A stretch of DNA of 55,396 nucleotides, taken from contig JAHDWN010000005.1 in NCBI GenBank assembly GCA_023382675.1, positions 1 to 55,396 of the forward strand. Reading direction: 5' to 3'. This DNA is from Anaerolineae bacterium (GTDB lineage: Bacteria; Chloroflexota; Anaerolineae; Aggregatilineales; Phototrophicaceae). Both the position numbers and the translations under genes were made by a program. Below the pieces are notes generated by a model that worked only from the letters and a program-made list of their open reading frames with translations, searched no databases and was not told the DNA's origin. How positions within the stretch are numbered: position 1 is the first letter of the stretch; each line of letters opens with the position of its first letter. Below, one piece after another: positions 2,184-25,256 of the stretch.

Positions 2184-2423
2184 TTCAAAGCCCCAATACG
2201 GTACATCCTCAAAACCCCAATTGCGGACGCAGTAAGAGCAATTATAGCACGTCTCCACGCCACGTCGCCAGACAAGAAACAGCCCCCCAACTATAGAGAA
2301 CGCGATCAACGCATCCGAGAGCTATACGCAAGCGGCATGACCCAAGCCGCCATAGGTGCGATGTTCGGCATTTCCGGGCGTCGGGTGAGCTACATCGTGC
2401 ATGGAATAAAGACGAGAAAATAG
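2184..2423 (+). CDS. Severed C-terminal HTH segment of recombinase B
   Basis: A 79-codon open frame with no ATG, GTG or TTG until a Met inside the predicted HTH (2337). It encodes a basic linker, then a helix-turn-helix (IRELYASGMTQAAIG, then MFGISGRRVSYIV) and a basic end. Its frame across the 16-bp repeat reads ARPEG, exactly as recombinase B does at 29021-29038. Circularising element B therefore fuses it in frame to the recombinase. The TAG stop overlaps the AGGAG of the next gene. It could instead be a decayed orphan regulator, but the missing start, shared phase and shared peptide favour a split 3' end. Confidence 0.78.
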   Translation, partial: FKAPIRYILKTPIADAVRAIIARLHATSPDKKQPPNYRERDQRIRELYASGMTQAAIGAMFGISGRRVSYIVHGIKTRK

Positions 2424-2432
2424 GAGACTGCT

Positions 2433-3392
2433 ATGGACACCCAAATTGATATGGAAACTGTCTACCGCCATGAACGGCAGCGATGGATGAAAGAGGAAGC
2501 CCCACGACGATCATTCCGCGACATTCTCACAGGCAGTGTACCCTACTGGATTGTGTTAGTTGCGCTGGTTTTGTACGGACTATCCGCCCCCCACACCGCA
2601 GGCGTGTTTGACAAACTCACGCCCGGATGGGGCTTTATCGCCCCTATCGGCGTTGAATTTGGTTTACTGTATGCTGCATTCCGAAGGCGGCTTGCACAGG
2701 CGGAACAGGAACACTTACATTGGACGCTATGGGCATTGGAAATCCTGCTATTTCTTACCGCTATGCTGGTCAACGGTGCAGGCTCATTCAGTTCAGTGAT
2801 TGCAGCAATAGAGCTAGATACCCTATCGTTTGCCGCCATCATTGAGGGTTTTGGGAACTTACCCGCTACAAGCCAAGCGGCGCTGATTATGGCGGTGCTA
2901 TCGGCATTCATCATCCCCATCGGCGCGTTAGTTGCAGGCGACGGACTGGCGGCACTGGCACTTGAGCGACGCAGCGGCATAGACTTTCGTGAAAACCGCT
3001 GGCAGGAAGTAGAGTTCACCGTGATCTATCGGGCAGTCTTTGTCCGCTATTTGCAGCATGGACTACCGGAACGCGACGCCCGGCAGCGGGCATTTGCTGA
3101 GGTTCGAGGATACTTGGGTAGAGGTAGTTCGTCCGGTGTCCGCCTGTTGTCCGCTGGTAGCGGACAGACCGGACAGAGCGAACAGGGAGCGAACGGACAC
3201 AGCCCGAACGGGAAAAATGGTGCAGTAAAACAAGGTATCCGAGCATACTTAGACGAACATCCCGGCTTAGACCAGCAATCCATCAATGAGGTGTTATCCG
3301 CGCTCAAAACAGCAGGCGTACACGGCGGACGGACATCCGTAGGCGAGGTATTGGCAGAACGGAAAGAGCGTGTAACGAGCGGGCAAGCGTAG
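2433..3392 (+). CDS. Four-helix membrane protein with a winged-helix-like tail
   Basis: 319 residues. About four hydrophobic helices occur between residues 35 and 180 (for example WIVLVALVLYGLSAP and LIMAVLSAFIIPIGALVAG). A soluble part follows, with a Gly/Asn/Gln-rich linker (about 235-265) and a short helical C-terminus (AYLDEHPGLDQQSINEVLSAL) that resembles a winged-helix core. No family is recognised. The AGGAG Shine-Dalgarno overlaps the stop of the HTH segment 9 nt upstream, so in the circular element this gene would be translationally coupled to the recombinase. In the integrated state no promoter of its own is evident. A role in maintenance or transfer is inference from position. Confidence 0.8.
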   Translation: MDTQIDMETVYRHERQRWMKEEAPRRSFRDILTGSVPYWIVLVALVLYGLSAPHTAGVFDKLTPGWGFIAPIGVEFGLLYAAFRRRLAQAEQEHLHWTLWALEILLFLTAMLVNGAGSFSSVIAAIELDTLSFAAIIEGFGNLPATSQAALIMAVLSAFIIPIGALVAGDGLAALALERRSGIDFRENRWQEVEFTVIYRAVFVRYLQHGLPERDARQRAFAEVRGYLGRGSSSGVRLLSAGSGQTGQSEQGANGHSPNGKNGAVKQGIRAYLDEHPGLDQQSINEVLSALKTAGVHGGRTSVGEVLAERKERVTSGQA

Positions 3393-3405
3393 CCACCAGA
3401 AGCGT

Positions 3406-3450
3406 TTTACATCCGTAGGGTGAGGATGATATAGTGAAATTCTCACCCTA
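3406..3450 (+). promoter_or_regulatory. Promoter overlapped by an inverted repeat (possible operator)
   Basis: TTTACA (3406) and TATAGT (3430) are 18 nt apart, the second 14 nt before the ATG at 3450, so the leader would be very short. The 9-bp inverted repeat TAGGGTGAG (3416-3424) and CTCACCCTA (3442-3450) flanks the -10 and ends at the start codon, as an operator or start-occluding hairpin would. Confidence 0.5.
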
Positions 3451-4100
3451 TGATGGAACGTGACCGCCCTACCCCCGATGAAATCCTTTCACTCAAGAAC
3501 AGTATTGTTTCGCAGTTTCAGCAGTTGCCCCCAGAACATCAAGCCACATTGGGCTTAGTCCTAACCAAAGGCATTCTACAAGGTGAGATGGGCGCGTGGT
3601 TTCGTGAAGCACTGCAACTTACGGATACCGCGCCCTCACTCGCTTTAGGCTTTGGTCTAACAGAACAAGAGCGGCTTTTTATCCGGGTTTCGCATCAGCG
3701 TTTCCTCACATTTCTTACAGCGACAGATACCAGCATCCATGACGCGCAGCTATCAACCAATAGCTATGGGGAATTTCTGTTTGTCACCATGAGCAGACCG
3801 GGGACAGAGGAGCGGGAGCAATACACATTCTTTGGTTTAGGGTATCACGAACCGCGTGACCGCTGGATTACGGATGAGTGGTTTTGGTATCAAGCACGTC
3901 CGTATTCAGAACGGCAAGAGCAATTGGAGCGCGAACAGGTATTGCGGTTAATTGCGGAGCGACAAGCCGATATTAGCCGGGACGTTGCCTTGCACAAGCG
4001 GTCACGGCGAGGCGTGATCTTTGAGGAACTTGCCGACATGGGCGACGATGATAGCGTACTAGCGGATTTTGAAGACGGCGCATTTGATGATCTTGAATGA
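3450..4100 (+). CDS. Hypothetical protein, element B left operon
   Basis: 216 residues, soluble, with no recognised family. It is rich in Glu/Gln/Arg, with a helical N-terminus, a central aromatic section (QYTFFGLGYHEPRDRW, DEWFWYQARPY), a long charged helix (RQEQLEREQVLRLIAERQAD) and a very acidic end. It starts at ATGATG right after the inverted repeat. The stop overlaps the next start (ATGA), so the two genes are coupled. Confidence 0.75.
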   Translation: MMERDRPTPDEILSLKNSIVSQFQQLPPEHQATLGLVLTKGILQGEMGAWFREALQLTDTAPSLALGFGLTEQERLFIRVSHQRFLTFLTATDTSIHDAQLSTNSYGEFLFVTMSRPGTEEREQYTFFGLGYHEPRDRWITDEWFWYQARPYSERQEQLEREQVLRLIAERQADISRDVALHKRSRRGVIFEELADMGDDDSVLADFEDGAFDDLE

Positions 4101-4753
4101 CGCGCAACGTTTTATATATGAGCAAGGAAGGTATACCACTCCAACATGATATGTTTTCAGGGGAACTTGTGGATACCCGAAGCAACGCACAGAAAAAGAA
4201 AGACCGAGCGCGAGCCATTCCGCAGCAGACGCAGATGTTTAAGACCCCTGAGATGGTGCAAATCGGCAGACAGACCAACGCAGCACGCCGAGCGTGGTTA
4301 AACCAATCCGCCGCTCCACCGCTGGTACTTGAAACGATTGAAACCCGTACACCGGAGGAGATTGAGCGCGACCTACAGCGGGAAATCGAAGCGCAAACCT
4401 ATCACCTGTTTAGCGATCATCCAGAGTTCTATGAACAATTGCCGGACACCGAGCCTACAAACGGAGACGAGGACGAGATAGGGGATACCCCTGTAACTGG
4501 CGACATTTACGAGCGGAAACCGGAAACCTCAAAAATGGCTCTTTATCTTGACCTTGTACGGCTCAGTGAGGAAAACGCCGAAACGATCTGGATTGCGCCG
4601 CCGTATGAAACCGCATACATGACCCAAATCGCCGCGACGGTACTTGAGGCGCAGGCAATCGGACTTACACAGCCGGAGATTACAGCAGCGTTACAGATAG
4701 GACAACATCGGGGCAATACTCGAAAAATACTGTATCAGGCATCGCAGCCGTAG
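4097..4753 (+). CDS. Hypothetical protein, coupled to the gene before it
   Basis: 218 residues, charged and soluble, starting in the ATGA overlap with the upstream gene. The N-terminus contains a basic helix (NAQKKKDRARAIPQQTQM). The middle is acidic and probably disordered (PTNGDEDEIGDTPVTGD). The C-terminus (LEAQAIGLTQPEITAALQIG) looks like a short helix-turn-helix. Function unknown. Position suggests the same transcriptional unit as 2433-4100. Confidence 0.7.
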   Translation: MTRNVLYMSKEGIPLQHDMFSGELVDTRSNAQKKKDRARAIPQQTQMFKTPEMVQIGRQTNAARRAWLNQSAAPPLVLETIETRTPEEIERDLQREIEAQTYHLFSDHPEFYEQLPDTEPTNGDEDEIGDTPVTGDIYERKPETSKMALYLDLVRLSEENAETIWIAPPYETAYMTQIAATVLEAQAIGLTQPEITAALQIGQHRGNTRKILYQASQP

Positions 4754-5631: not shown

Positions 5632-6786
5632 ATGAGTGGAAAGAAAACAGACTTGGTTGAAACCCCTGACGTTGATGATAAGACCGCACTGCTCTTGTGG
5701 GTACGCGCAGGCGGTAGATGCTCTTTCCCCGGATGTAACGATTATCTTCTCCGCGACAGCCTAACTACCCGCGATATTAAGCACGGTCATATTGCCCACA
5801 TCGTTGCGAGAAGCAAAAACTTCACACGCGGCGACCACGATTTGCCTCTCGCAGAGCGTAGCAAGATTGATAATTTGATTTTGGTTTGTCAAAAGCATCA
5901 TAAACTCATTGATGATGACACGGAAGGAGAGTTCACAGTAGAACTCCTCCGTGCATACAAACAGCAGCATGAAGAACACATTTTTGAACTAACGAATTGC
6001 AGCCCTGATAAGCGAAGCAAGGTGATACGGGTTATCGCCCGGATCAGTGGTGAAAACGTTAGCGCCTCATACTCGCAAATCTGTGACGCTTTACTTGACC
6101 AGGGTAGATTTCCCCGTGAGAGAGAAACTGTTGATATTGATTTGAGCCAACACCCGGACGGTGACACGGAAGCCTTTATGCAGTACGGGACGGAGTTGAT
6201 AGCCTCGAAAGTCCGCCCTGTCTACGAGCGGTTAGTTGTTCAAGGTAACGTGGAACACGTCTCAGTATTTGCCATCGGTTCGATACCGCTCTTGGTATAT
6301 TTGGGGACGCAATTGAGTAACAAAGTCCCTACGGACTTGTATCAGCGCCACCGTGATAGGCAGGACTGGACATGGAAGCCCGAACCGGGAAACGCGCAGT
6401 ATGATATGAAACTTCTGAGGGAAGGCACAGACGCCTCTCAGGTTGCCCTAGTTCTGTCTTTGAGCGGGCGGTTGACACTCGAACAACTACCACAAAATGA
6501 TGATGCTTTTATCTATGAGATAACCTTAAAAGGGCAAAAACCCAATCCCGAATATCTGAGGACGAAAAGCGACCTTGAAAGTTTTAGGAGCATTTATCAG
6601 CAGTTCCTAGCCCATGTTCGAGATCAACATCCATCAGCCGAGACTATTCATCTCTTTCCAGCCATTCCCGCGCCTGTAGCAGTAGTGTGCGGACGGGAGT
6701 TATTGCATAAGATACCACCGAGCCTGCAAGTGTATGACAGAAGCAGACAGAGTGGTGGATTTCGTCATGTATTGGAGGTTCACTAA
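5632..6786 (+). CDS. cap5: CBASS effector: HNH nuclease fused to SAVED domain (Cap5-like)
   Basis: 384 residues. The N-terminal HNH nuclease shows zinc-type residues Cys30, Cys35, Cys86 and His89 and the catalytic pattern HIAHIVA (His56), Asn81, His90. From about residue 135 a SAVED domain follows, with the typical core VSVFAIGSIPLLVYLGTQL and LYQRHRDRQDWTW. In this family SAVED binds a cyclic oligonucleotide made by the adjacent CD-NTase, and the HNH domain then cleaves DNA, causing abortive infection. The stop directly abuts the CD-NTase start (TAAATG), so effector, synthase and E2 form one operon. The family call is firm; the nucleotide ligand cannot be told from sequence. Confidence 0.92.
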   Translation: MSGKKTDLVETPDVDDKTALLLWVRAGGRCSFPGCNDYLLRDSLTTRDIKHGHIAHIVARSKNFTRGDHDLPLAERSKIDNLILVCQKHHKLIDDDTEGEFTVELLRAYKQQHEEHIFELTNCSPDKRSKVIRVIARISGENVSASYSQICDALLDQGRFPRERETVDIDLSQHPDGDTEAFMQYGTELIASKVRPVYERLVVQGNVEHVSVFAIGSIPLLVYLGTQLSNKVPTDLYQRHRDRQDWTWKPEPGNAQYDMKLLREGTDASQVALVLSLSGRLTLEQLPQNDDAFIYEITLKGQKPNPEYLRTKSDLESFRSIYQQFLAHVRDQHPSAETIHLFPAIPAPVAVVCGRELLHKIPPSLQVYDRSRQSGGFRHVLEVH

Positions 6787-7674
6787 ATGAGCGCAAATCA
6801 GTATTTACGAGACGTTCTAGCCAGCCAAACATTTCAGGATGATGACCCTGAGTTGAAGGCGCTTCGAGATAAGCGCGATGAAGTGGAAAAAATTCTGCGT
6901 AAAGCGTTTCCCGGCGTAGCGATCCGATACGCAGGCTCTCACGCAAAAGGCACGATGATATGTGCGAGCTATGACCTTGACTTGACGTGCTATTTTGACC
7001 ATGACGACACACAGGCGGGGGATAGTCTTGAAGAAATCTACAATACTGTAAAGGCAGAATTGGAGAAGCATTATTCGGTGAACCCGAAAACTTCCGCTCT
7101 GCGATTGGAAGAGGGTGAACAGGATAAACAGTACACGCACGTAGATGTAGTGCCAGGTCGCTTTATTGATGGTGACGACGGCGATGTTTTTCTCTATCAA
7201 AATAGGAATGAGAAGAACCGCCTAAAAACTAATCTTGATGTGCATATCGAGACGATACGAGACAGTGGACTAACGGACGCTATTCGACTGGTCAAATATT
7301 GGCGGGAACGACAGGGCTTCAAGTTAAAAACCTTTGTGCTTGAGCTACTGGTAGTGAATGTTTTGGCGTCCCACAAATCCAAAGGACTTGAGGAACAGCT
7401 TACGCTCTTTTGGGAGTGCCTACGGGACAGTTTCGATAGTATAGCCATCGAAGACCCGGCTAATCCTGATGGGAATGATCTTATGCCCGTGTTGACCGAT
7501 GCTAAGGTACGGCTACAAACAGCCGCCGAAGCGACACTTCAAACCATAGAATATTCCGGTTGGGAGCAGGTTTTTGGTAATGTGGACGATCAACCAAGTG
7601 AACCGGAAAAAGCTGCTGCACTAATCAGCTTTCCGCAGGTTAGAACAGGCGGCGCTAAACCCTGGTCTAACTAA
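6787..7674 (+). CDS. CBASS CD-NTase (cyclic oligonucleotide synthase)
   Basis: 295 residues, the sensor-synthase of the CBASS operon. The nucleotidyltransferase signature is complete: Gly50-Ser51 in AGSHAKGT, the metal-binding pair Asp63/Asp65 in YDLDLTCYF, and a third acid at Asp120 (YTHVDVVPG). A helical C-terminal half follows (RLVKYWRERQGFKLKTFVLELL), typical of CD-NTases. The C-terminus ends GGAKPWSN rather than in a terminal glycine, which matters because related E2-linked systems modify the synthase C-terminus. The E2 gene starts 1 nt after its stop. The product nucleotide is unknown. Confidence 0.92.
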   Translation: MSANQYLRDVLASQTFQDDDPELKALRDKRDEVEKILRKAFPGVAIRYAGSHAKGTMICASYDLDLTCYFDHDDTQAGDSLEEIYNTVKAELEKHYSVNPKTSALRLEEGEQDKQYTHVDVVPGRFIDGDDGDVFLYQNRNEKNRLKTNLDVHIETIRDSGLTDAIRLVKYWRERQGFKLKTFVLELLVVNVLASHKSKGLEEQLTLFWECLRDSFDSIAIEDPANPDGNDLMPVLTDAKVRLQTAAEATLQTIEYSGWEQVFGNVDDQPSEPEKAAALISFPQVRTGGAKPWSN

Positions 7675-7675
7675 C

Positions 7676-8344
7676 ATGCCAGAGACGCAGCGCGACGCAA
7701 AGTTTGAGGAGATTAGACAGCTACTTCAACAGCATTATCCCACGCTTCATCTTACTTGTGAGAGCCGTCAATGGCTCATAAAAGGCAGTTTTCCAGTACG
7801 AGCAAACGGAGTAGAGATAGATCACTATCTGATCGCTATACTCATTCCGCAAGGCTTTCCCCGAAATGCGCCCCTTGTAAAAGAACTTGGCGGACGGATA
7901 CAAGAACATCCCGACTGGCATGTTTATCAGGAAGGTTTTCTTTGCCTCTTTTCACCGCTAGAGCGATGGAAGCATTTACCAGAAACCGCCACCATAATCA
8001 CGTATCTGGACGGCGCTCTGAACGATTACTTGTTCAGCCAGACCTATCACGAAAAACATGGAAAGTGGCCGCTTGGGGAACGAGGACATGGCGCGAGAGG
8101 AATTAGGGAATATCTGATAGAAGAGTTGGGTACTGATGATCTATCAGTAATGCGGCGATTTCTGGAATATCTAGGCAAAAAGAAAATACGGGGACAGTGG
8201 AGATGTTATTGCGGAAGCGGGAAGCAAATTCGCTTCTGCCACCTCGCCAAGATTAGCGACTTACACAATAAGATAACGCTTGCTGAGGCGCGGTATGCGT
8301 TACAGGTTCTTGATCGTGCGATGCAACGAAAATTGGTTGAATAA
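7676..8344 (+). CDS. CBASS E2-like protein with SEC-C zinc motif (short type II)
   Basis: 222 residues. The first 130 or so match a prokaryotic E2 (ubiquitin-conjugating-like) fold with candidate catalytic Cys90 in EGFLCLFSPLERW. The C-terminus has a SEC-C type zinc motif (Cys177, Cys179, Cys188, His189 in CYCGSGKQIRFCH). No E1 or JAB gene accompanies it, so the operon is the short, E2-only form of type II CBASS, in which E2 is thought to modify or control the CD-NTase. It is 1 nt downstream of the CD-NTase gene. Domain calls are by motif and context; conjugation activity is inferred. Confidence 0.82.
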   Translation: MPETQRDAKFEEIRQLLQQHYPTLHLTCESRQWLIKGSFPVRANGVEIDHYLIAILIPQGFPRNAPLVKELGGRIQEHPDWHVYQEGFLCLFSPLERWKHLPETATIITYLDGALNDYLFSQTYHEKHGKWPLGERGHGARGIREYLIEELGTDDLSVMRRFLEYLGKKKIRGQWRCYCGSGKQIRFCHLAKISDLHNKITLAEARYALQVLDRAMQRKLVE

Positions 8345-8349
8345 CTCGA

Positions 8350-9021
8350 TTACATCCTGACTGATGGGGCTTCCGGCAGCGGCTCTATCAGCACTTCGTC
8401 ATCATTCTGAGGATTGTTGACCAGCGGCAAAACTTGGTAGGCTTTCATATTCGCCGGATCGTAGGGTTTTAGAAGTGACAAGAGCGCACTAATTGGCGTT
8501 GTGAGCGTTGCCCATTGTTCTTCTATCTCACGCGGTAAAATGACGGGCATTCGGGCATGGATTGGTTTCATTACCTCATTCGGCTCACACGTCAGGATTG
8601 AATAGGTCTTTAGTTCTTTTCCTTCTGCATCTTTCCAGTTATCCCAAATGCCAGCGAAGGAAAACACCGGACGAGATTTTAGCCGGATAAAAAACGGTGT
8701 TTTTGTGCCGTCCGGGTTCTTGCGCCACTCATAGAAGCCCATCGAAGGAACGAGGCAGCGCCGCTTATAAAACGCATCCCGAAAGACCGGACTTTGTTGC
8801 ACGTTTTCCACACGGGCGTTAATCGTTGAGAACTTCACGCGCGGCTCTTTCGACCAGTGAGGAACAAGCCCCCACTTCATCAGTTCAGCGTGATACGGTG
8901 AGTTTTTCAGGATGACCGGAAGGAAGCTGCCCGGCGTAGCGTTGTACGTTGCATGGAAACCAGACGGCGGAGTTAGCCCGTAAGTTCTGAAATCCGAATT
9001 GACGGCGTAGCGGCCACACAT
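8350..9021 (-). CDS. SRAP (YedK/HMCES) abasic-site-binding protein
   Basis: 223 residues, normal family length. It starts MCGRYA with the catalytic Cys2, which crosslinks abasic sites in single-stranded DNA after Met removal. Other family residues are present: NARVEN, GFYEW and HARMPVILP. In this family the protein shields abasic sites in ssDNA during replication and often rides on mobile elements. It is convergent with the CBASS E2 gene, 5 bp apart. A TACAAT -10 box 8 nt before the ATG and no Shine-Dalgarno suggest leaderless transcription. Confidence 0.93.
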   Translation of the reverse strand: MCGRYAVNSDFRTYGLTPPSGFHATYNATPGSFLPVILKNSPYHAELMKWGLVPHWSKEPRVKFSTINARVENVQQSPVFRDAFYKRRCLVPSMGFYEWRKNPDGTKTPFFIRLKSRPVFSFAGIWDNWKDAEGKELKTYSILTCEPNEVMKPIHARMPVILPREIEEQWATLTTPISALLSLLKPYDPANMKAYQVLPLVNNPQNDDEVLIEPLPEAPSVRM

Positions 9022-9060
9022 ACAGGCGTATTGTACACTACTGTGGCAACCAATCTCTAT

Positions 9061-9088
9061 TTGTTCGAGAGGGAAACAGAACTATAAT
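9061..9088 (+). promoter_or_regulatory. Promoter of the PLD-SNF2/methyltransferase operon
   Basis: TTGTTC and a perfect TATAAT are 16 nt apart. The leader to the ATG at 9261 is about 165 nt. It contains a 24-codon frame (9105-9179) that could be a leader peptide, but nothing confirms this. AGAGG at 9251 is the Shine-Dalgarno for 9261. Confidence 0.55.
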
Positions 9089-9260
9089 TTCTAATTAGAG
9101 AGACATGCTTAATGTGAATTGCGTAGAGTTTGTTCCCATTTGCTGTTCATCAATTCGTATTACCCACCAAAAGCTGTAGAGTTTTATCGGTTTACCTTAG
9201 CAAGAGCTAGGCAAAACCCACAATTGGTTTATCCACCATCACTTACTGGCAGAGGTTCTG

Positions 9261-12200
9261 ATGCCCCGGATTTTTGACAACATTGAGCAAGACCTTCTCA
9301 CAGCCCTCCAAGAAACTATAGATGTTGCATTTCGCGCTGATTTTTGCGTCGGCTACTTTAACTTGCGTGGTTGGCGAGGGATTACACCATACATTGAAAA
9401 ACTTGAAGGCGGCAACGGGCGAAACTGCCGCGTACTGGTCGGAATGCAGCGCCTCCCCCAAGAGGAAGTGCGCGAACTCATGCGCCAATTCAAGGACAAC
9501 CAAACCATTGATAATCAGACGGCGCTCAGACTGAAGAAGCGATTGGCGGAAGAATTTCGCCAGCAATTGACAGTCGGTATTCCCACAAACGCCGATGAAG
9601 CCGGATTGCGACAACTTGCCGCTCAAATCCGCGCGGGTAAAGTTGTGGTCAAGCTCTTTCTCCGCTCTCTACACGCCAAACTCTACTTGCTCCATCGTAA
9701 TGACCGCATCAATCCTATCGTTGGCTATCTGGGCAGCAGTAACCTAACGTTGGCAGGACTACGGGATAACTACGAACTGAACGTTGATGTCCTTGATGGA
9801 GATGCCTGCAAAAAATTAGGACAGTGGTTTGAAGACCGCTGGACAGACCGCTGGTGCATTGATATTTCGGAAGAACTGGTCAACATTATCGAACAAAGTT
9901 GGGCGCGGGAAGACCTTATTCCTCCCTACCACATTTACGTCAAAATGGCGTATCACCTGTCGCATGAAGCCCGTGACGGTCTATCAAAATTTCGCATCCC
10001 ACCTGATTTCGGGCAAAAACTATTCGACTTTCAGGCGGCAGCCGTCAAAATTGCAGCCCATCATCTCAACAAGCGCGGCGGTGTCCTGATTGGAGACGTG
10101 GTAGGGTTGGGCAAAACCCTGATGGCAACCGCGCTCGCACGTATTTTTGAAGATGATTTTGGTCTTGATACCCTCATCATTTGCCCAAAGAACCTTGTCC
10201 CAATGTGGGAGGATTACCGAGAACAGTATCGCCTTCGCGCCCGGATATTGCCCATTAGCCTAGTCCATCGAGAGTTGCCTAACATGCGGCGACACCGATT
10301 GGTCATCATTGACGAGAGCCATAACTTACGCAACCGTGAAGGGCAGCGTTATCGGGCGATACAGGAATATGTTTATGCCAACGAAAGCATGTGCATTTTG
10401 CTTTCGGCGACACCGTATAACAAGACCTACCTTGACCTGTCAAACCAACTTCGATTGTTCGTAACGCCTGACGAGGACATCGGCATTCGCCCAGAACAGC
10501 TATTGCGTGAGATGGGTGAAACAGAGTTCATACGCCAGCACCAAGCGCCACTTCGTTCCCTAGCGGCTTTCGAGTATAGCCCATATGCAGACGACTGGCG
10601 GGAATTGATGCGGCTGTATATGGTGCGCCGCACCCGCAGCTTTATCCAAGATAACTACGCCGAGACCGACCCTGAAAACGGGCGCAGATACCTGACATTT
10701 GAGGATGGCTCACGATCTTACTTTCCGATACGCATTCCCCGGACAGTGAAGTTTTCGATTGACGAGACCAACCCTCATGACCAGTACGCCAGTCTATTTG
10801 CCCCAGATGTTGTAGATACTATCAATCATCTCAATTTGCCGCGTTATGGTCTGGGGAATTACATTTCCAGCACAGCACGAGACAGAGCGACGGACACAGA
10901 GATCAAGCAGCTTGACGATCTTTCCCGCGCTGGAAAACGGCTGATGGGTTTTTCGCGGACAAATCTGTTCAAACGACTGGAAAGCAGTGGGCAGGCATTC
11001 ATTCAGTCTGTCGAGCGACATATCCTACGCAACCTCATTTACCTCCACGCCATTGATAACAAGCTGGATTTGCCCATTGGGACGCAGGATGTCGGCGCAT
11101 TAGATAGTCGCACCAGCGACCTTGATCCAGACAGTCCGCTCAGTTTCTTGGCTGATGACGATCAGAATAACGAGGCGATACCAGTAATAAATGCAGTACG
11201 CTCGGCAGCCGACTTTGAGAAACTGGCAGCCACCGTTTACGGCAGTTATACCCGTCAATACCGCCGACGCTTCAAGTGGTTACGCGCCGAACTTTTCACC
11301 AAGCGCCTCGCCAAAGAACTGCGAGAAGACGCCCAGGCGCTCCTACAAGTGTTGAATTCTTGCGGTCAGTGGGAAATTGCACAGGACGCCAAGCTGAATG
11401 CGCTGGTAGACCTTTTGACGGTACAACACCCGAACGAGAAAGTGCTAGTGTTTACCCAATTTGCCGATACCGTGAGTTACTTGGAGCAGCAGCTTCAGCG
11501 ACACGGCATCCAACATTTAGCCGGGGTGACAGGCAATTCGGATAATCCGACAGCCCTAGCACATCACTTCAGTCCGGTAAGCAACGATAAGCGGCATATA
11601 GTTGCCTCGAAAGATGAACTTCGCGTCCTTATCGCTACTGATGTGCTTTCCGAAGGTCAAAACCTCCAAGACTGTCACATCATTGTCAATTACGACCTTC
11701 CCTGGGCAATTATCCGTCTCATCCAGCGGGCGGGACGTGTTGATCGTATCGGGCAGCAAGCCACCGACATCTTGTGCTACACATTCCTACCTGCTGACGG
11801 TGTAGAGCGAATTATTCGTCTTCGCGCCCGTGTTCGCCAGCGGTTGCAGGAAAACGCTGAGGTGGTTGGCACAGATGAGGCGTTCTTTGAGGACGACCAA
11901 AATCAGGCGGCAATCCTCAACCTCTACAACGAAAAGGCGGGCATTCTGGACGGCGAGGAAGATAGTGAGGTTGACCTTGCCTCTTATGCGTACCAGATTT
12001 GGAAGAATGCAATTACGCTTGACCCTCGCCTAGCAAAAACCATTCCGCAACTGCCTTCGGTAGTCTTCAGTACCCGTCCGCACATTCCCTATCCCGGCGC
12101 ACCAGAGGGCGTGCTGGTCTACATGCGGACGGCAGAGGGAAACGACGCGCTCGCGTGGATTGACCGCAACGGCGAGAGCGTCACTGAATCGCAATTTGCC

Positions 12201-12650
12201 ATATTAAAAGCGGCAGAATGCTACCCGGATATGCCTGCTCTCCCCCGTGATGAACACCATCATGAATTGGTACAAGCCGGACTGGTACAGATTATGAGGG
12301 ATGAACGCTCAGTAGGGGGACAGCTTGGGCGTCCAAGCGGAGCGCGTTTCCGCACGTATGAACGGCTTCAACGATTTACGACACAGCTTAAAGGAACATT
12401 ATTTGAAGCCAGTTACGAAGAGAAGGGACTATTCCAAGCTGTAGATGAGATTTATCGCTTCCCTTTGCGCCAGTCGGCGGTAGACGCGCTTAACCGCCAT
12501 CTCCGCAGCGGCATCAACGACGAGGAGCTTGCAGAGTTAGTGATGAACCTGCGAGCCGATGGTCGCTTGTGTGTAGTCGAAGAAGAAGAGCAAACGCAAG
12601 AACCTCGCATCATTTGTTCGTTGGGACTTTCAGCAACAGGACGAGAATAA
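9261..12650 (+). CDS. PLD-domain SNF2-type helicase/translocase (defence-associated)
   Basis: 1129 residues. A phospholipase-D-like nuclease module comes first (His138-x-Lys140 in LHAKLYLL, then GSSN at 158-161). A SNF2-type ATPase follows: Walker A in VVGLGKT (about 283), DESHN (about 351), SATPYNK (about 383), and helicase-C motifs with TDVLSEGQNLQ and RAGRVDRIGQ (about 823). The PLD motif has one HxK and lacks the usual Asp eight residues on. The stop abuts the methyltransferase ATG (TAAATG), so the two genes act together. Such pairing is typical of DNA-modification-based phage defence (type I, ISP or DISARM-like). The exact system type is not recognised. Confidence 0.85.
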   Translation: MPRIFDNIEQDLLTALQETIDVAFRADFCVGYFNLRGWRGITPYIEKLEGGNGRNCRVLVGMQRLPQEEVRELMRQFKDNQTIDNQTALRLKKRLAEEFRQQLTVGIPTNADEAGLRQLAAQIRAGKVVVKLFLRSLHAKLYLLHRNDRINPIVGYLGSSNLTLAGLRDNYELNVDVLDGDACKKLGQWFEDRWTDRWCIDISEELVNIIEQSWAREDLIPPYHIYVKMAYHLSHEARDGLSKFRIPPDFGQKLFDFQAAAVKIAAHHLNKRGGVLIGDVVGLGKTLMATALARIFEDDFGLDTLIICPKNLVPMWEDYREQYRLRARILPISLVHRELPNMRRHRLVIIDESHNLRNREGQRYRAIQEYVYANESMCILLSATPYNKTYLDLSNQLRLFVTPDEDIGIRPEQLLREMGETEFIRQHQAPLRSLAAFEYSPYADDWRELMRLYMVRRTRSFIQDNYAETDPENGRRYLTFEDGSRSYFPIRIPRTVKFSIDETNPHDQYASLFAPDVVDTINHLNLPRYGLGNYISSTARDRATDTEIKQLDDLSRAGKRLMGFSRTNLFKRLESSGQAFIQSVERHILRNLIYLHAIDNKLDLPIGTQDVGALDSRTSDLDPDSPLSFLADDDQNNEAIPVINAVRSAADFEKLAATVYGSYTRQYRRRFKWLRAELFTKRLAKELREDAQALLQVLNSCGQWEIAQDAKLNALVDLLTVQHPNEKVLVFTQFADTVSYLEQQLQRHGIQHLAGVTGNSDNPTALAHHFSPVSNDKRHIVASKDELRVLIATDVLSEGQNLQDCHIIVNYDLPWAIIRLIQRAGRVDRIGQQATDILCYTFLPADGVERIIRLRARVRQRLQENAEVVGTDEAFFEDDQNQAAILNLYNEKAGILDGEEDSEVDLASYAYQIWKNAITLDPRLAKTIPQLPSVVFSTRPHIPYPGAPEGVLVYMRTAEGNDALAWIDRNGESVTESQFAILKAAECYPDMPALPRDEHHHELVQAGLVQIMRDERSVGGQLGRPSGARFRTYERLQRFTTQLKGTLFEASYEEKGLFQAVDEIYRFPLRQSAVDALNRHLRSGINDEELAELVMNLRADGRLCVVEEEEQTQEPRIICSLGLSATGRE

Positions 12651-15600
12651 ATGGCTTTTTACCTCGCGGTGATCCGCCGATACATCCAGGCGTTTGATTT
12701 CCAGACTTTGTTTAACTACTTAGGTTGGGACAATCATCAAGGACAGCTAGTAATTCCGCTCGACGGTCAGCAGATAGCTTTGTCTGCGGTTGCCGAGAAG
12801 CGTGGCATGGTTGTCTATCGCTGCAACACGTTATTGGACTATTCGCGGCGTACTAAAGTCGAGCGGCAGGTTGCCAAATCCACGTTCGAGCATCTGATTG
12901 TCTACACCGATGGTCAGAGAGAGCAAATTTGGCAGTGGGTACGACGTGAGGTAGGCAAGCCGCTTGCCAACCGTGAGCGCCGTTTCTACCGAGGACAGAC
13001 GGGCGAAAATATTGCCCAAGCTCTCACCAAAATAGCGTTCAGTTTTGATGAAGAAGAGGCGCTGACGTTGGTTGATGTGACCAGCCGTATGCGGGCTACT
13101 TTCGATCTAGAGCCTGTGACACGGCGCTTCTATGACCGCTTCCAACGCCAACACGACGCATTTCTTGCCTTCATTGAGGGCATCCCGGATGAGGATTTGC
13201 AGCAGTGGTATGCGTCGGTGATGCTTAATCGCCTGATGTTTATCTACTTCGTACAGAAAAAGGGCTTCCTAGACGGAGACGTGGATTACCTTCGCAATCA
13301 TTTGGAACAGGTTGAGGGTAACTTCTATCGAGATTTTCTCTGCCCCCTGTTTTTCGACGGCTTCGCATCGAAAGAACACCCACAAGAAATTCGACGGTTG
13401 CTCGGCGATGTGCCATACCTCAACGGTGGGTTGTTCATGCGACATCAAATCGAAGAACTGTACGGCGAAGCAATCCAGATCGAGAATATTGCCTTTGAAA
13501 AGCTCTTTGACTTTTTTGATGACTACCGTTGGCATTTGGACGAGCGTCCGCTGCGAAACGACAACGAAATCAACCCTGATGTATTGGGCTATATCTTCGA
13601 GAAGTACATCAATCAGAAGCAGATGGGCGCGTACTACACCAAAGAGGATATTACCGACTATATCAGCAAGAATACGGTCATTCCTTTCTTATTCGACGAG
13701 GCGAGCAAAGCGGTAAAAATTGCATTTGAGGGTGAGCATACGCTTTGGGATTTGCTAACCGAGAACCCTGACCGCTACATCTATCCGGCGGTGCAGCGCG
13801 GCGTAGAATACGATCTGCCGGAGAATATTGCTATCGGACTGGATGACGTAAGCCAGCGCGGGGCTTGGAACACACCTGCTCCATCTGACTATGCCTTGCC
13901 CGCTGAAATTTGGCGTGAAGTGGTTGATCGCCGGAAACGCTACGCCGAGATTAGTGACAAATTGGCAAGGAGCGAAGTCCGGCATATCAACGATTTAATT
14001 ACCCTCAACCTTGACATTCGGCAGTTCGCGCAGGATGTGATTGACTACACCGACAGCGCCGATGTCGTGCGTGCTTTCTGGAAAGCGATCAACCGTGTAA
14101 CAGTCCTTGACCCAACTTGCGGCAGCGGCGCGTTTCTCTTCGCGGCATTGAACATCCTTGAGCCGTTGTATGAAGCCTGTCTGGAACGTATGGAAGGCTT
14201 TGTCGCTGAATTGGAGCGGAGCGGCGGCTACCCACAGAGTTACAATGACTTCCGCGAGGTGCTGGCGCGTATTGACCAGCACCCCAACCGCCGTTACTTT
14301 ATCCTCAAGAGTATTATCGTCAACAACCTATTTGGCGTGGACATCATGGAGGAAGCTGTTGAAATCTGCAAGTTGCGACTGTTCCTCAAGTTGGTGGCTC
14401 AGGTGGACGACAAGAGCAAAATTGAACCACTGCCAGATATAGATTTCAATATTCGAGCCGGAAATACGCTGGTCGGTTTTGCGACGCGCGATCAAATACA
14501 GGGAAATCTTTTTGCTCAGGCTGTACTACCGCAGATTGAAGTGTTAACTGGGACGCTCAATACGTTTCGTAAGGAGCAACTTGCAGGCAATGTCAGCCCG
14601 GAAACAATGACTGAGTTGAAGTCACACATTCAACAGAAAATAAACGAGATTGTAGATGTACTAGATAAAGCACTTGCCCCTATACACGGCTTCGGTACAG
14701 ATCAGGTTGCGCGCTTCCGCGACACCCACAAACCATTTCACTGGTTTGCCGAGTTCTACGGCGTGTTGAATAGTGGGGGCTTTGATGTGATTATCGGTAA
14801 TCCACCGTATGCGACCCTTAACTCAGTTAAGGAATACTCCGTAATTGGTTATAAGACAACTACTACTCGCAATCTTTATCCGTTGGTTTTAGAAAGATGC
14901 CTTCCATTAGCTGTCACTGAAGGCAGATCGGGATATATTGTTCCAGTCTCTTCTATTTCGACAGATGGTTACAGCACCTTGCAGGAAATAGTATTCCAAT
15001 ATTGTCTACATGCTAGTTCATTCGATGACAGACCAGCACGGCTATTTGAGGGTTTAGAACACATACAGCTCACAATTTGGCTAATCCAAAATCGTCCAAA
15101 TACTGAAGGCAAGTATCATACTACAGAGTGTTTTAGGTGGAGTTCTGTCGAGCGAGAGCATCTGTTTTCAAGGCTTGAATATCAAGAAGTCGAGACAACT
15201 CGTATTGAGAATACTCTACCGAAAATTAGCAGCCATTATGAGCAGTCATTGTTGGAAAGGGTATTCTCAGATCAGGCTATTATCGGACACCAAATGGTGA
15301 AACGCGGGAAATACAGCGTTTATTACTCAAGAAAAGTGCATAACTTTTTGCAGGCATTAGATTTTGTGCCGGAGGTTTATGATGGTGACGATAAACTTCG
15401 CGCCCCTTCTGAACTTAAAGAACTTCGATTTTCTGAAGCGTTCCAATCTGACGTGATTTTCTGTCTGTTGAATTCCACATTGTTTAGATGGTTCATAAAT
15501 GTATTCTCAGATTGCCGTCACGTAAATAAGCGAGAGGTCGAGGGCTTCCCAATAAATCTTCAGAAAGCAAGCAGTGAAGAAGGCTGGCAGCACCTTGCGG

Positions 15601-15839
15601 AAGTATTGTCTGACAACCTAAAGTCAACCTCTGAGTTCAGGACGATGAGATTTTCACATGACACATTGCGTATCCAGTGTATTATTCCAAAACTCTCCAA
15701 GCCTATCATTGATGATATTGACTACTTGCTAGCTCGACACTACGGCTTTACGGACGAAGAACTGGACTTCATCATCAACTACGACATTAAATATCGTTTG
15801 GGCGATGATCTGGATGGCGATGAGGGAGATGGGGAATGA
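12651..15839 (+). CDS. Eco57I/PglX-like N6-adenine DNA methyltransferase
   Basis: 1062 residues. A long N-terminal region (about 1-310) precedes the helical YYTKEDITDYI block. The methyltransferase core has motif I DPTCGSGAF (about 485) and motif IV NPPYA (about 716), which define an adenine-N6 enzyme. The C-terminal 300 or so residues would hold the target-recognition domain; their DNA (about 14820-15700) is visibly richer in A+T than the rest of the gene, suggesting domain exchange. It starts directly after the translocase stop. It probably marks self DNA so that the PLD-SNF2 partner attacks unmodified DNA; this role is inferred from the pairing. Confidence 0.88.
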   Translation: MAFYLAVIRRYIQAFDFQTLFNYLGWDNHQGQLVIPLDGQQIALSAVAEKRGMVVYRCNTLLDYSRRTKVERQVAKSTFEHLIVYTDGQREQIWQWVRREVGKPLANRERRFYRGQTGENIAQALTKIAFSFDEEEALTLVDVTSRMRATFDLEPVTRRFYDRFQRQHDAFLAFIEGIPDEDLQQWYASVMLNRLMFIYFVQKKGFLDGDVDYLRNHLEQVEGNFYRDFLCPLFFDGFASKEHPQEIRRLLGDVPYLNGGLFMRHQIEELYGEAIQIENIAFEKLFDFFDDYRWHLDERPLRNDNEINPDVLGYIFEKYINQKQMGAYYTKEDITDYISKNTVIPFLFDEASKAVKIAFEGEHTLWDLLTENPDRYIYPAVQRGVEYDLPENIAIGLDDVSQRGAWNTPAPSDYALPAEIWREVVDRRKRYAEISDKLARSEVRHINDLITLNLDIRQFAQDVIDYTDSADVVRAFWKAINRVTVLDPTCGSGAFLFAALNILEPLYEACLERMEGFVAELERSGGYPQSYNDFREVLARIDQHPNRRYFILKSIIVNNLFGVDIMEEAVEICKLRLFLKLVAQVDDKSKIEPLPDIDFNIRAGNTLVGFATRDQIQGNLFAQAVLPQIEVLTGTLNTFRKEQLAGNVSPETMTELKSHIQQKINEIVDVLDKALAPIHGFGTDQVARFRDTHKPFHWFAEFYGVLNSGGFDVIIGNPPYATLNSVKEYSVIGYKTTTTRNLYPLVLERCLPLAVTEGRSGYIVPVSSISTDGYSTLQEIVFQYCLHASSFDDRPARLFEGLEHIQLTIWLIQNRPNTEGKYHTTECFRWSSVEREHLFSRLEYQEVETTRIENTLPKISSHYEQSLLERVFSDQAIIGHQMVKRGKYSVYYSRKVHNFLQALDFVPEVYDGDDKLRAPSELKELRFSEAFQSDVIFCLLNSTLFRWFINVFSDCRHVNKREVEGFPINLQKASSEEGWQHLAEVLSDNLKSTSEFRTMRFSHDTLRIQCIIPKLSKPIIDDIDYLLARHYGFTDEELDFIINYDIKYRLGDDLDGDEGDGE

Positions 15840-18667: not shown

Positions 18668-19035
18668 AAAAGGTAGATACATCTGTTTTTGTCAGTGAGC
18701 AAAAAGCCAGCCGGATTAAGCCGGAAGAAATAGATATGGCGGACTTACCCCCTATTCCGAAGCCAGTTCCACACGATAACAAAAGCCAGGAACAGGAAAA
18801 AGCCGAACGCATTTCCGAACGAACGGAATTCCGAACGGAAAACCGTTCGGATCAGCGCCCCTCATTTTTTCCTCTCAAGCGACGCACCACCCGTTATAGT
18901 TTCGAGTTTTACGAAGATCAAATCTACAAATTGAAGGAACTCAAGCATCGGGCAGAGATGAGCGGAGAAAAGGTAACACTGTCTGACATTGCCAGAGAAG
19001 CCCTTGACGAATACCTCAAAGAAAAAGACCCCTAA
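18664..19035 (+). CDS. Ribbon-helix-helix centromere-binding protein
   Basis: About 123 residues. A disordered charged N-terminal half leads to a ribbon-helix-helix-like C-terminus (TRYSFEFYEDQIYKLKELK, then LSDIAREALDEYLKE). It overlaps the ParA stop. RHH proteins in this position bind centromere repeats and stimulate ParA. Repeats of GAACGGAATTCCGAAC lie both inside the coding sequence (18821) and right after the stop (19041, 19081), consistent with binding to its own locus for partition and autoregulation. Confidence 0.78.
   Translation: MKKVDTSVFVSEQKASRIKPEEIDMADLPPIPKPVPHDNKSQEQEKAERISERTEFRTENRSDQRPSFFPLKRRTTRYSFEFYEDQIYKLKELKHRAEMSGEKVTLSDIAREALDEYLKEKDP
18815..18850. repeat. Partition-site repeat inside the RHH gene
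   Basis: GAACGGAATTCCGAACGGAA (18821-18840) with flanking CCGAAC and CCGTTCGG half-sites. It is identical over 20 bp to the copy at 19041. The core CGGAATTCCG is palindromic. It encodes the low-complexity stretch SERTEFRTENRS. Confidence 0.75.
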
Positions 19036-19040
19036 ACACC

Positions 19041-19097
19041 GAACGGAATTCCGAACGGAAATTCGTTCGGAAGATCGAACGAACGGAATTCCGAACG
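19041..19097. repeat. Putative centromere (parS-like) repeats after the RHH gene
   Basis: Two further copies of GAACGGAATTCCGAAC (19041 and 19081) with an intervening inverted half-site (TTCGTTCGG) and a CGAAC half-site. They follow directly after the RHH stop. Together with the copy inside the gene they form an iterated array, the usual form of a partition site bound by RHH proteins. Confidence 0.75.
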
Positions 19098-19156
19098 CTG
19101 AATAGCGCGTCTTGACAATCCATTTTCGATGTGTGCAAGATGTAAAGTAGGCAATA

Positions 19157-21728: not shown

Positions 21729-24347
21729 GTGGGTGAATTTATCTTGGGGAAGGATGAACGGGGGAATATCGTTGCGCTACCACCGGATGCGCGGAAGCAA
21801 GGTACGCACATGCTTGGCATTCAGGGGACAGGAAAAACCACATTGCTGCTTCGTATGGCGCTAGAGGATATTGCAGCCAATGAGGGCGTATGCGTGATTA
21901 CCCCGCACGGTGATCTTATCCAAGACCTGTTAGCCCGAATTCCCAAGCAACGCAGCCAAGATATTATCGTGTGGGATCCGTCCGATATGGCGCGTCCTTT
22001 TGGCTTCAACATTTTTGCCTGCGACAATCCGGCTGATGACGCACTAGTGAGCAGAATAGCCAACGATGTAGTTGTCAAGACGTTTGAACTTTTATGGGGA
22101 GATAGTTGGGGCGCGCAGATGGATGAGGTGATGCGCGTCGTAAGCGCAACAATAACCCGCTGTCAGGGGATGCCAGAGGCAGAGCGCCCCACCCTAACAG
22201 ATTTTTCGCGGTTCATACGGATGAAAGTATTTCGGCAGCGGTATCTTGACTACCTTTGGAGCAATTACCCGGTTCAGGCTGCCGGGCAACTGGATTGGTG
22301 GGATGACCTTGAGGCGGTTAGCGACCATGAACGCCGTGAGAGGGTACGTTCAACACTCAATAAGGCTAATCGCTTCTCAGAACAGCCGATGTTACGAAAT
22401 ATCTTCGGACAGCCGACGAGCAGTTTTAATTTGCGGCGTGTAATGGATGAGGGGAAAATATTGCTGGTTGATCTGACCAAAGCTCGGCTTGGTATTGACG
22501 ACAGCCGGATATTGGGAGCGGTGCTGGTTGGTCAATTCTATCTTGCGGCGCTCTCACGGGAAGATATTCCACAGGAAACTCGTCGCCCGTTTCACCTAAT
22601 CGTTGATGAGTTTCAAAACTTTGCCAGCACCGCGTTTTTTGAATTATTTGAAGAGGCGAGAAAGTACGCGATTGATTTGGTAATCGCACACCAGAATTTG
22701 ACGCAGCTTACAGAAAAAATGCGCGAAAGGGCGCTAAGTGCAGGGTGCAAGGTTGTATTTCGGGTTAACGGGAGTGATGCAGACCGCCTAAAAAAAGAAT
22801 TTCGTGTTACCGACGCTGACCGTCGGATAAAAGGGGAGCATGTCCGCCGTGATATAAGCATTGATCCCTGGCGTGACCTGAAGCGAGGAAGCCATAAGAA
22901 CCCACGAGTGCGCGAGTTGGTACGGGAGCTTGAACCGAGCTTCGTGTATTACCCAAGATTTGCTGACGCCCCAGGAGAGATCACGAAAAAGATCGAGGAC
23001 GAGATCACTCAATATCTCTATGATCGAATGATGGGCTATACCCCCTCGCTTGATCGTCTTATACTCAAGCCAAAGGTTACAGTGACCGAGTATCCCGGTC
23101 ACTATGAGTATCCATCCCTCTATTTTGGTGAGTTTAATCAATTCAAATCCATTCTGGATTGCAGCACTGAAGTGTGCAGGCTTGCGGTAGAGTTGCCAAA
23201 GGATAAGGCGTTCGAGTATGTAGAAGATAACTTGGAATTGTACGTGTCACGTTCTGCTGACCTACTAGGGGACATTCCACCTTACTATCGTTTGAGGGAA
23301 TATTCTGTATGGGTGGACATGGGATTTCCTTACGATGATGTCCCAAACCCCAATTGGTATGAGGCCAAGTACGGAAAAACTCAAAATTGGTCATCAGAAG
23401 AACTCAATGCTGTTTACGCTAGATTGCTCCAAAAAGTCGAGGCGCTGAAAAAGCCTCTAAAGCACGACCTGACAGTATGGCTGAACTTTTTACAGGATGA
23501 GCTTCGGAAATTAGAAGGGCATATTAGGAAAGTAGATCAACACGGGCATGGAGACAATTCGAGGCGGCTGGTTTTCGGTAGACTAGAGTTTGCTAATAAC
23601 AGCAGCTTCACGCCCGTAGGATATTGGGCTGTTGAGCGTGATGAAAAAACAGGACTAATCGTGCGAGAACGGAGTTCTCTATTTCATGTTTATGCTCCGC
23701 GCAGAAAGGTACAAGTATATGGTGGCTTTTCTTGGGAAGGCTATCGGCGTGCGTTGAGCGGTGCAGTTACGAAATGGCAACGGGCAGTCGCTTCTGCTTC
23801 ACGGCTAACGCTTCGGAAAATTCAGAATTTGCGCCGTAAGGAAGTGGAAGAGTGGTACAAAAACGCGCAGGCTTCTTGGAAACCGCCCCGAACTGAAACG
23901 CACTCGGAAGAGTTGGATGCTCATGATCGAGCGAAAAATGCGTTTTGGAATAACAGAATAGAATGGATACAAGAGCTTGGCGATTTATTAGCCGATGAAC
24001 CTGTCTATGCGCCAACAGGACAGACCGAGCCAATTTTCCAAACTGTTACTGAGGCGCAGGAAGAGTATCAAAACGCGCTTACTGGTCAAGAGAAATTCCA
24101 CGCTTGGGTTGTTTTTACAGGTGACGAAGAGACCGGATTGCGGCAGCACAAGGGAGTTGCGCTAGATGACGCGCAGCCGCCGCCTAAGGGTTGGGAAGCG
24201 CCCGTAGATGCAATTCGTCACCATTCCCGAATGCACTACGGGCGAGAGAGGGATCAAGTTGAACGGTTGATTACTAATCGGTGGCATCTTGGACAGAGAG
24301 ACAAGTTGGTACAGAAAGATGCTGAGGAGCTACCACCTGAACGATAA
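21729..24347 (+). CDS. HerA/VirD4-type DNA-translocating ATPase (coupling-protein-like)
   Basis: 872 residues. Walker A is GIQGTGKTT (about residue 30) and Walker B LIVDEFQNF (about 290), with HGDLIQDLL and IVWDPSD between, as in TraG/VirD4 coupling proteins. It has no N-terminal membrane helices, and a roughly 430-residue C-terminal extension of unknown fold follows. The GTG start has GAGGAG upstream. Together with the replication-relaxation gene 21 bp downstream it probably processes and moves element DNA. Without VirB-like genes it may serve a borrowed transfer apparatus or an FtsK-like route. Confidence 0.82.
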   Translation: MGEFILGKDERGNIVALPPDARKQGTHMLGIQGTGKTTLLLRMALEDIAANEGVCVITPHGDLIQDLLARIPKQRSQDIIVWDPSDMARPFGFNIFACDNPADDALVSRIANDVVVKTFELLWGDSWGAQMDEVMRVVSATITRCQGMPEAERPTLTDFSRFIRMKVFRQRYLDYLWSNYPVQAAGQLDWWDDLEAVSDHERRERVRSTLNKANRFSEQPMLRNIFGQPTSSFNLRRVMDEGKILLVDLTKARLGIDDSRILGAVLVGQFYLAALSREDIPQETRRPFHLIVDEFQNFASTAFFELFEEARKYAIDLVIAHQNLTQLTEKMRERALSAGCKVVFRVNGSDADRLKKEFRVTDADRRIKGEHVRRDISIDPWRDLKRGSHKNPRVRELVRELEPSFVYYPRFADAPGEITKKIEDEITQYLYDRMMGYTPSLDRLILKPKVTVTEYPGHYEYPSLYFGEFNQFKSILDCSTEVCRLAVELPKDKAFEYVEDNLELYVSRSADLLGDIPPYYRLREYSVWVDMGFPYDDVPNPNWYEAKYGKTQNWSSEELNAVYARLLQKVEALKKPLKHDLTVWLNFLQDELRKLEGHIRKVDQHGHGDNSRRLVFGRLEFANNSSFTPVGYWAVERDEKTGLIVRERSSLFHVYAPRRKVQVYGGFSWEGYRRALSGAVTKWQRAVASASRLTLRKIQNLRRKEVEEWYKNAQASWKPPRTETHSEELDAHDRAKNAFWNNRIEWIQELGDLLADEPVYAPTGQTEPIFQTVTEAQEEYQNALTGQEKFHAWVVFTGDEETGLRQHKGVALDDAQPPPKGWEAPVDAIRHHSRMHYGRERDQVERLITNRWHLGQRDKLVQKDAEELPPER

Positions 24348-24368: not shown

Positions 24369-25256
24369 ATGAGTAAGCCAACGCACCCCCGATTTACCGC
24401 CCGCGATGGACAAATCCTTGAGGCAATTTTTGCCTATGATGGTGTGTTGGCTGACTACCAGATACAGCGCCTCTTTTTTGGTGCTGTAAAGCGCACCGCA
24501 GAAATCCGCTTGCAAAAACTCGTTGAGATGGGATACATCACCCGTCCAGACCGCCAGCATCGGGCGCAATTGCCGGGCTATACAGTCTATTGGCTGACCA
24601 AGCCAGGAGCGGAGTATATAGCAAGTTTACAGGGACAATCCCTTGCCGATCTTCATTGGCGCAAACCGGAAGCCCGCTGGTCTTTGGTTCAGCATGATAT
24701 TGCCGTCAACGACTTTCGGATTGCCGTAACCCAAGCAGCCGCCGCCCATTCAGAGCTACAATTGACCGAATGGATACCGAGCAGCATATTTTGGGCGGAT
24801 CACGACACGATTGAATACGATATTAAGCAGGATGGTAAAGCAAGAAAGGAGCGGCGGGGAGTGCGTCCCGACAGCTATTTCGTAGTTGTCCAGCCCGGTT
24901 ATCCACCCTCACGGTTCTTGCTAGAGTTAGATCGTGCAACGGAGCATCATCCACGCTTTGCCCGCGAGAAGTTACACGCCGGGATCGCTTATATCAAATC
25001 GCCCGCCTACAGGCAACGGTTCGGGTATAACGCCGGACGCTGGTTAGTCGTGACCACAAGCGACATGCGACGCGGGAACATGCAGGAACTTGCCGAGCGC
25101 GAACTTGGAAAGGCAGCGGCAGCATTTTATTACACCACTAAGAACCTCACGGAACAATACAATCCTTTGATTGAGCCAATCTGGTTCAAGGGCGCAGAAG
25201 AGACGCCTACAGCACTGTTTGAGAGCTACACCAGAAACCCCCAGGACGGACACTAG
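24369..25256 (+). CDS. Replication-relaxation family protein
   Basis: 295 residues matching the Replic_Relax family: an N-terminal winged helix (FTARDGQILEAIFAYDGVLA, LQKLVEMGYITRP), the VQHDIAVNDFRIAV block and an acidic core (RRGVRPDSYFVV, FLLELDRATEHHPRF). Members occur on plasmids and integrative elements of Gram-positive bacteria and Chloroflexota and are thought to nick or initiate at the element origin. The gene directly follows the ATPase, a common pairing. It is probably the nearest thing to a relaxase in element B. Confidence 0.82.
   Translation: MSKPTHPRFTARDGQILEAIFAYDGVLADYQIQRLFFGAVKRTAEIRLQKLVEMGYITRPDRQHRAQLPGYTVYWLTKPGAEYIASLQGQSLADLHWRKPEARWSLVQHDIAVNDFRIAVTQAAAAHSELQLTEWIPSSIFWADHDTIEYDIKQDGKARKERRGVRPDSYFVVVQPGYPPSRFLLELDRATEHHPRFAREKLHAGIAYIKSPAYRQRFGYNAGRWLVVTTSDMRRGNMQELAERELGKAAAAFYYTTKNLTEQYNPLIEPIWFKGAEETPTALFESYTRNPQDGH

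Follow-up and report, generated by a model that had tools for sequence, protein, structure and literature searches.

The locus described here raises the question of which genes at the left end of an integrated element would fall under transcription from its recombinase gene once excision had joined the two ends, and how far such transcription would reach. The window, that is, the whole 55,396-nucleotide stretch of DNA analyzed, opens contig C5 in an Anaerolineae genome of 6.4 Mb and contains two insertions side by side. The original prediction placed the left-end genes, from the membrane-protein gene at 2433 perhaps to 4753, under the recombinase of the excised circle. A narrower explanation is considered reasonably probable: attP lies within the recombinase gene, and excision would join the body of this gene, its detached tail and the gene at 2433 into one coupled plus-strand unit, with the genes at 3450–4753 standing apart.

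Neighboring insertions and boundaries of element B

The first insertion, element A, encodes a large serine recombinase at 292–2076 on the plus strand (Resolvase, 1.2e-24), the stop codon of which falls inside the antisense of a minus-strand tRNA-Glu(CTC) at 2039–2111. The left end of element A lies off the contig. The second insertion, element B, spans ~26.9 kb (2167–29037) and sits in a tRNA-Arg gene. Its left att core (2167–2182) is a copy of the tRNA-Arg 3′ end, and its right att core (29022–29037) is an exact 16-bp repeat of the left one, located at the 3′ end of the insertion target, tRNA-Arg(TCG), at 29024–29097 on the minus strand. The host flanks of element B, when joined, match the intact tRNA-Arg/tRNA-Glu pair of the G450 genome, of the same genus, at 79% over 710 nt, which identifies the empty site. 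The joined attP of element B is absent from the assembly, where the joined sequence was matched as two halves only. Element B combines a site-specific recombinase with defined att ends, as do integrative mobilisable and conjugative elements, and is an integrative element that is probably mobilisable.

A recombinase gene divided by its own attachment site

The body of the large serine recombinase of element B is encoded at 27194–29086 on the plus strand (PF00239, 2.4e-16). Its last codons are tRNA-Arg antisense, within which the integrated gene ends RAARPEGFEPPTDGSEDRCSIH. Read over the predicted joint of the circle, the gene continues as RAARPEGFKAPIRYILK...GMTQAAIGAMFGISGRRVSYIVHGIKTRK and stays open through 2183–2423 on the plus strand, the first stop being the TAG at 2421. 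This left-end segment, the last ~80 codons, is the putative orphan C-terminal tail of the recombinase and carries an HTH, the matches to which fall below the curated cut-offs of Pfam (best Sigma70_r4, 9.8e-4) and likewise of PHROGs. No ATG, GTG or TTG codon occurs in frame ahead of the HTH in the window's tail, so that the tail should not be made alone when the element is integrated.

The 630-residue body has a length fitting large serine recombinases and matches the phrog_95 integrase (1.9e-32), and its profile, A4, matches solved serine integrases, the best being 9iu2 at 5.1e-9. At an E value of 0.1, Pfam recognizes the resolvase domain only, with no Recombinase or zinc-ribbon match in the long C-terminal part. 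The catalytic domain is N-terminal and remains with the body after the split. A contiguous natural body–tail ORF of 678 residues, from the relative G463:C20 and itself a tandem junction, was modeled with a mean pLDDT of 75.6. In the model the tail follows a stretch of low confidence (residues 569–632), and its loss should for that reason spare the body.

A small protein, a candidate accessory (directionality) factor, is encoded upstream of the element B recombinase at 26818–27039 on the plus strand. Related small proteins (EYVPP...ARQVCE) lie directly upstream of both recombinases in the window, that of element A at 48–311, and iterated tblastn located a homologue upstream in 25 of 31 loci, 23 of them already at the first round. 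Both recombinase genes also contain an opposite-strand terminator-like hairpin behind their own tRNA, at 2029–2000 in element A and at 28977–28948 in element B, the latter downstream of tRNA-Arg and within the recombinase coding sequence.

Distribution of the split gene

Both ends were identified for seven elements, namely element B, G000:C11, G446:C130, G449:C35, G463:C20 (59.5 kb, with a 13-bp core) and insertions in comM of G407 and G446, the ends of the last being on two contigs and assumed to belong to one insertion. In all seven the frame at the left end carries on from that of the element's own recombinase, with the att site located within the recombinase gene, which is split upon integration. 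The HTH is present in five of the tails and absent from the two comM tails. The repeats of the comM elements are only 7–9 nt long and were missed by blastn, which was counted against the main explanation. A 16-bp repeat in G414, for which none of the frames yielded an HTH tail, is not among the seven. The larger point of the original prediction, that the recombinase gene is split, is therefore firmly supported by the family data; judged from these sequences, the split gene is a general feature of the family and the tight coupling described below a minority trait.

Copies of the tail evolve as protein. Their dN/dS values are 0.07–0.44 in 32 of 37 pairs, which are not independent of one another, and the other five pairs are saturated; the window's tail has no close relative and for this reason lies outside the set. 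Among 33 loci with related recombinases, 16 recombinases have their stop within a tRNA of the opposite strand (Glu, Arg or Lys), four adjoin a tail, four are cut by a contig end before the stop and nine end otherwise, one of these reaching 1 nt beyond a tRNA. A second set of 18 loci, which overlaps with the first, has 11 in which the stop falls in a tRNA. All 33 loci are from MAGs of Anaerolineae or other Chloroflexota, bar one labelled Pleurocapsa. Within the taxonomic family, 22 of the 61 genomes have a match to the recombinase, in some cases fragments or the resolvase domain only, as do 75 genomes of a 400-genome sample of the phylum, where the best match outside its own genome is at 1.6e-14 and the rest are to the resolvase domain or to tRNA-derived ends. 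The tail profile matches in 28 of 37 chosen genomes. No relatives of the recombinase were found in the viral_contigs, plasmids and phages collections.

At 14 places some recombinase adjoins a tail within a contig, in frame at eight and out of frame at six. These places include at least two tandem insertions, with body and tail from different elements, and one degenerate recombinase (G468:C22). Contiguous recombinase–tail ORFs were considered as circle forms and dropped: those of G463:C20 and G449:C35 are tandem insertion junctions, those of C56 and G456:C13 have recombinases that are themselves broken, and C56, where the entries at 13526 and 14057 are one ORF, contains a further recombinase fragment that has a tail of its own.

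The window's own genome contains 21 tail matches, several of them in same-strand series 6–15 kb apart and mostly without a recombinase (L175–L178 on G000:C29, L179 and L180 on G000:C60, L182 and L183 on G000:C15). The left flanks within these series share a sequence, and conservation on the tail side sets in abruptly; the series look like stacked, partly non-autonomous insertions. Elsewhere, two tails occur on long ORFs of 669 and 658 residues (L209 on G444:C11 and L190 on G471:C438), the bodies of which do not match this recombinase family; these may be further recombinases bearing a tail of this kind.

A membrane-protein gene behind the tail

The first gene behind the tail, at 2433–3392 on the plus strand, encodes a 319-residue membrane protein with hydrophobic stretches and a soluble C-terminal part. 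As the original prediction stated, the stop of the tail overlaps its Shine–Dalgarno sequence: the letters at 2421–2426 are TAGGAG, followed by ACTGCT, with the TAG at 2421–2423 and AGGAG at 2422–2426. Nine nucleotides separate the TAG from the ATG at 2433. From this overlap, translational coupling of the gene to the tail is predicted. The predicted structure of the membrane protein has a mean pLDDT of 60 and no PDB match at an E value of 0.001 or better, and accordingly no function was drawn from it.

The spacing was compared across 58 tails, comprising 57 of the tail places from the profile listing and the window. Counting recognized membrane proteins only, a membrane-protein start lies 5–14 nt behind the tail in five of them: the window (9 nt), G449:C15 (5 nt), G463:C22 (14 nt), a second, contig-cut copy in G463:C22 (11 nt) and G463:C45 (13 nt, with a shortened ORF). 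The four cases outside the window belong to a second membrane-protein family, whose two complete copies show hydrophobic stretches. The other 53 tails have either no plus-strand ORF of 80 residues within 400 nt or an unrecognized one at −4 to 339 nt. Short ORFs with GTG or TTG starts at G452:C248 (19 nt), G425:C762 (11 nt) and G444:C5:398655 (−4 nt) were left out of the coupled set, as was a 59-residue ORF behind G463:C45:10260.

Homologues of the 2433 protein occur in five of the 61 family genomes, its own included, with 67–77% identity in four homologues and 32% in one. No relatives were found in the plasmids collection. In G446, three copies have the homologue beginning 10 nt past the end of the tail and carry GTAGG or GGAGG beside that stop, and in G407 the homologue overlaps the tail stop; all four of these left ends are comM-associated. 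Those of G446:C94 and G427:C686 are without tight spacing and were counted against the main explanation. The position of a membrane-protein gene immediately behind a tail is thus a recurrent trait, shared by a minority of the tails. The recombinase inserted in comM is a different large serine recombinase, ending in comM antisense (L223, 4200–5993; L224, 5647–7452; L170/L171), and at the left end of its elements a short in-frame tail is followed by the 2433 homologue.

Expected transcription of the left end

No sigma-70-like plus-strand site above background was found between 2112 and 2433, the interval in which a start site had been named as evidence against the original prediction: the highest-scoring match reaches 8 of 12, a value equalled or exceeded by 265 of 300 stretches of 322 nt drawn at random from the element, and since the scans know the sigma-70 consensus only, the lack of a match is not proof that a promoter is absent. 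A plus-strand terminator-like site was likewise not found between 2167 and 2433. The claims that 2433 has no recognizable promoter of its own and that recombinase transcription would run into it in the circle thus agree with the anatomy, i.e. with the single direction of the genes, the lack of recognizable promoters and plus-strand terminators between them, and the recurrence of the order in relatives.

The alternative that survives best is that 2433 is also transcribed while the element is integrated, either by read-through from element A or from a promoter departing from the sigma-70 consensus, to which the scans are blind, such that excision would change little. The element A recombinase, also on the plus strand, points at 2433 and ends 356 nt ahead of it; no plus-strand terminator-like site was found between the two, and silence of 2433 upon integration is therefore not assured. 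The original prediction had the integrated recombinase B running into the tRNA, as it does in antisense, and omitted this upstream recombinase. Nonetheless, the alternative is rather unlikely, because the best plus-strand match in the interval is at background and because element A is a chance neighbour, while the order of tail and membrane-protein gene recurs at other sites.

Transcription across the joint might instead drive the whole set from 2433 to 4753 as one operon. The three open frames (2433–3392, 3450–4100 and 4097–4753) are on the same plus strand, only 57 nt lie between 3392 and 3450, and the last two genes, encoding proteins of no confident family, overlap by 4 nt. However, a promoter-like site, TTTACA-18-TATAGT with a TG before the −10 element, is located just ahead of 3450 (3406–3435, plus strand). 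It scores 10 of 12, a score of at least 10 being reached in only 4 of 1000 random windows of the same size, and a 12-nt inverted repeat resembling an operator (3416–3427/3439–3450) surrounds it. Moreover, G407 and two of the three G446 copies depart from this order past the membrane-protein gene, their next long ORF being on the opposite strand. A single operon is accordingly improbable, and the suggestion that coupling extends perhaps to 4753 is not borne out; with its own promoter-like site and palindrome ahead of 3450, coupling probably ends after 2433. Two units are expected, the recombinase–tail–2433 unit in the circle and a 3450–4753 unit that is probably self-controlled.

A third possibility, that the left end is a decaying remnant with an incidental overlap of stop and Shine–Dalgarno sequence and a silent 2433, draws on the many tails without a recombinase, some of which are broken by stops. 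It is very improbable for element B, in which the recombinase, the tail and 2433 are all open frames, and 2433 shares 67–77% identity with four homologues, several of them placed alike. Scarcely credible is a reading of the HTH segment as an independent small regulator gene rather than a recombinase C terminus: an in-frame ATG precedes the HTH in 20 of 58 tails and many tails are in arrays without a recombinase, but the window's tail lacks such a start and the frame agrees with the element's own recombinase in every paired element.

In the favored explanation, attP within the recombinase gene, integration into tRNA-Arg would split the gene, leaving the catalytic body at the right end with its stop in the tRNA antisense and moving the HTH tail, devoid of a start codon, to the left end. 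Excision would rejoin body and tail in frame to give a full-length recombinase with its HTH, and in the circle the recombinase, the tail and 2433 would form one plus-strand unit, translation of 2433 being coupled to that of the tail through the overlapping stop. When integrated, 2433 would be cut off from this source and its expression would probably be low, bar read-through from element A, and the genes at 3450–4753 would probably follow their own regulated promoter. The rejoined tail and the membrane protein may thus be made mainly while the element is free.

More tentatively, at a little short of even odds, the recombinase may be regarded as sensing the state of its own DNA, the circle providing the HTH and a coupled membrane protein, integration stripping both, and stacking swapping tails. 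Elements stack at the same tRNA, and the tail of a newcomer can therefore fuse to the recombinase of a resident, the reading frame being kept at 8 of the 14 junctions. If so, a resident recombinase would acquire a foreign HTH without leaving the chromosome. The favored explanation itself would offer a simple means of tying the form of the recombinase and a circle-stage membrane protein to the state of the DNA, with no additional switch protein needed, and RNA and protein specific to the junction are predicted from it. The recombinase family is present in many Anaerolineae MAGs and is aimed at several tRNA genes.

Comparison with known systems

The recombinase of Tn916, the element to which the original prediction compared the locus, is a tyrosine recombinase. 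In the sections of the Tn916 account drawn on here, its left-end genes are transcribed from Porf7 only after circularization, the genes reached across the joint are those for DNA processing and conjugation, and an insulating terminator, T1, and an antiterminator, canT, take part (PMC11658703). The logic is shared, in that excision sets a promoter-bearing right end before promoterless left-end genes (PMC11658703, same sections). The likeness does not extend further. Element B has one membrane-protein gene behind the joint, the joint lies within a coding frame, the enzyme is a serine recombinase, and no T1-like plus-strand terminator was found between 2167 and 2433. Its transfer-like genes, for a TraG-like and a Replic_Relax protein, are on the recombinase side, whereas the three left-end genes match no transfer family.

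Archaeal SSV-type 'suicidal' integrases, as presented in the extract of a 2021 review used here, likewise have a recombinase gene that contains the att site and is split at integration, and the extract describes self-disrupting recombinases as exclusively archaeal (PMC8371274). These integrases are tyrosine recombinases in which the split parts off the C-terminal catalytic domain, whereas the serine recombinase of element B keeps its N-terminal catalytic body and loses the HTH tail only (comparison with the same extract). In mycobacteriophage BPs, according to the portion of the report cited, attP lies inside the repressor gene and integration yields a product 33 residues shorter (PMC4557955). 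Here too a gene containing attP would give a shortened product once integrated, but from that portion the BPs gene is a repressor gene and its tail a degradation tag, while in element B the gene is that of the recombinase, the tail an HTH and a downstream gene is predicted to be coupled to it. For ICEKp1, the text excerpted describes state-dependent switching of the int promoter (PMC13023037). As in element B, transcription at the joint would differ between the integrated and excised states; in the excerpt it is the int promoter that is switched, whereas in element B int would be joined to its own tail and a downstream gene. A literature search of titles and the starts of abstracts, with subscription papers mostly outside its range, recognized no serine recombinase with attP in its own gene. 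Excision-coupled expression (Tn916) and att-split genes (archaea, mycobacteriophage repressors) are already known; in element B the two would meet at a bacterial serine recombinase.

Transfer-like and cargo genes of element B

The transfer-like genes are a TraG/TraD-like ATPase, resembling a coupling protein, at 21729–24347 and a Replic_Relax protein at 24369–25256, both on the plus strand. No relaxase or VirB4-type family was found among the element proteins scanned, a subset of the ORFs. Given the TraG-like ATPase and the Replic_Relax protein, the membrane protein may help in transfer or anchoring of the circle. The region 5632–15839 carries defence cargo, comprising a CBASS system (SAVED-HNH effector, cyclase and E2-like protein), an SNF2/PLD helicase and a type IIG restriction enzyme. 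Because element B carries such phage defence, the proposed switch would bear on how defences move. Four copies of a CGAACGGAATTC...CGTTCGGA repeat at 18820–19111, around the end of the gene behind a ParA-like gene, are possibly a partition site.
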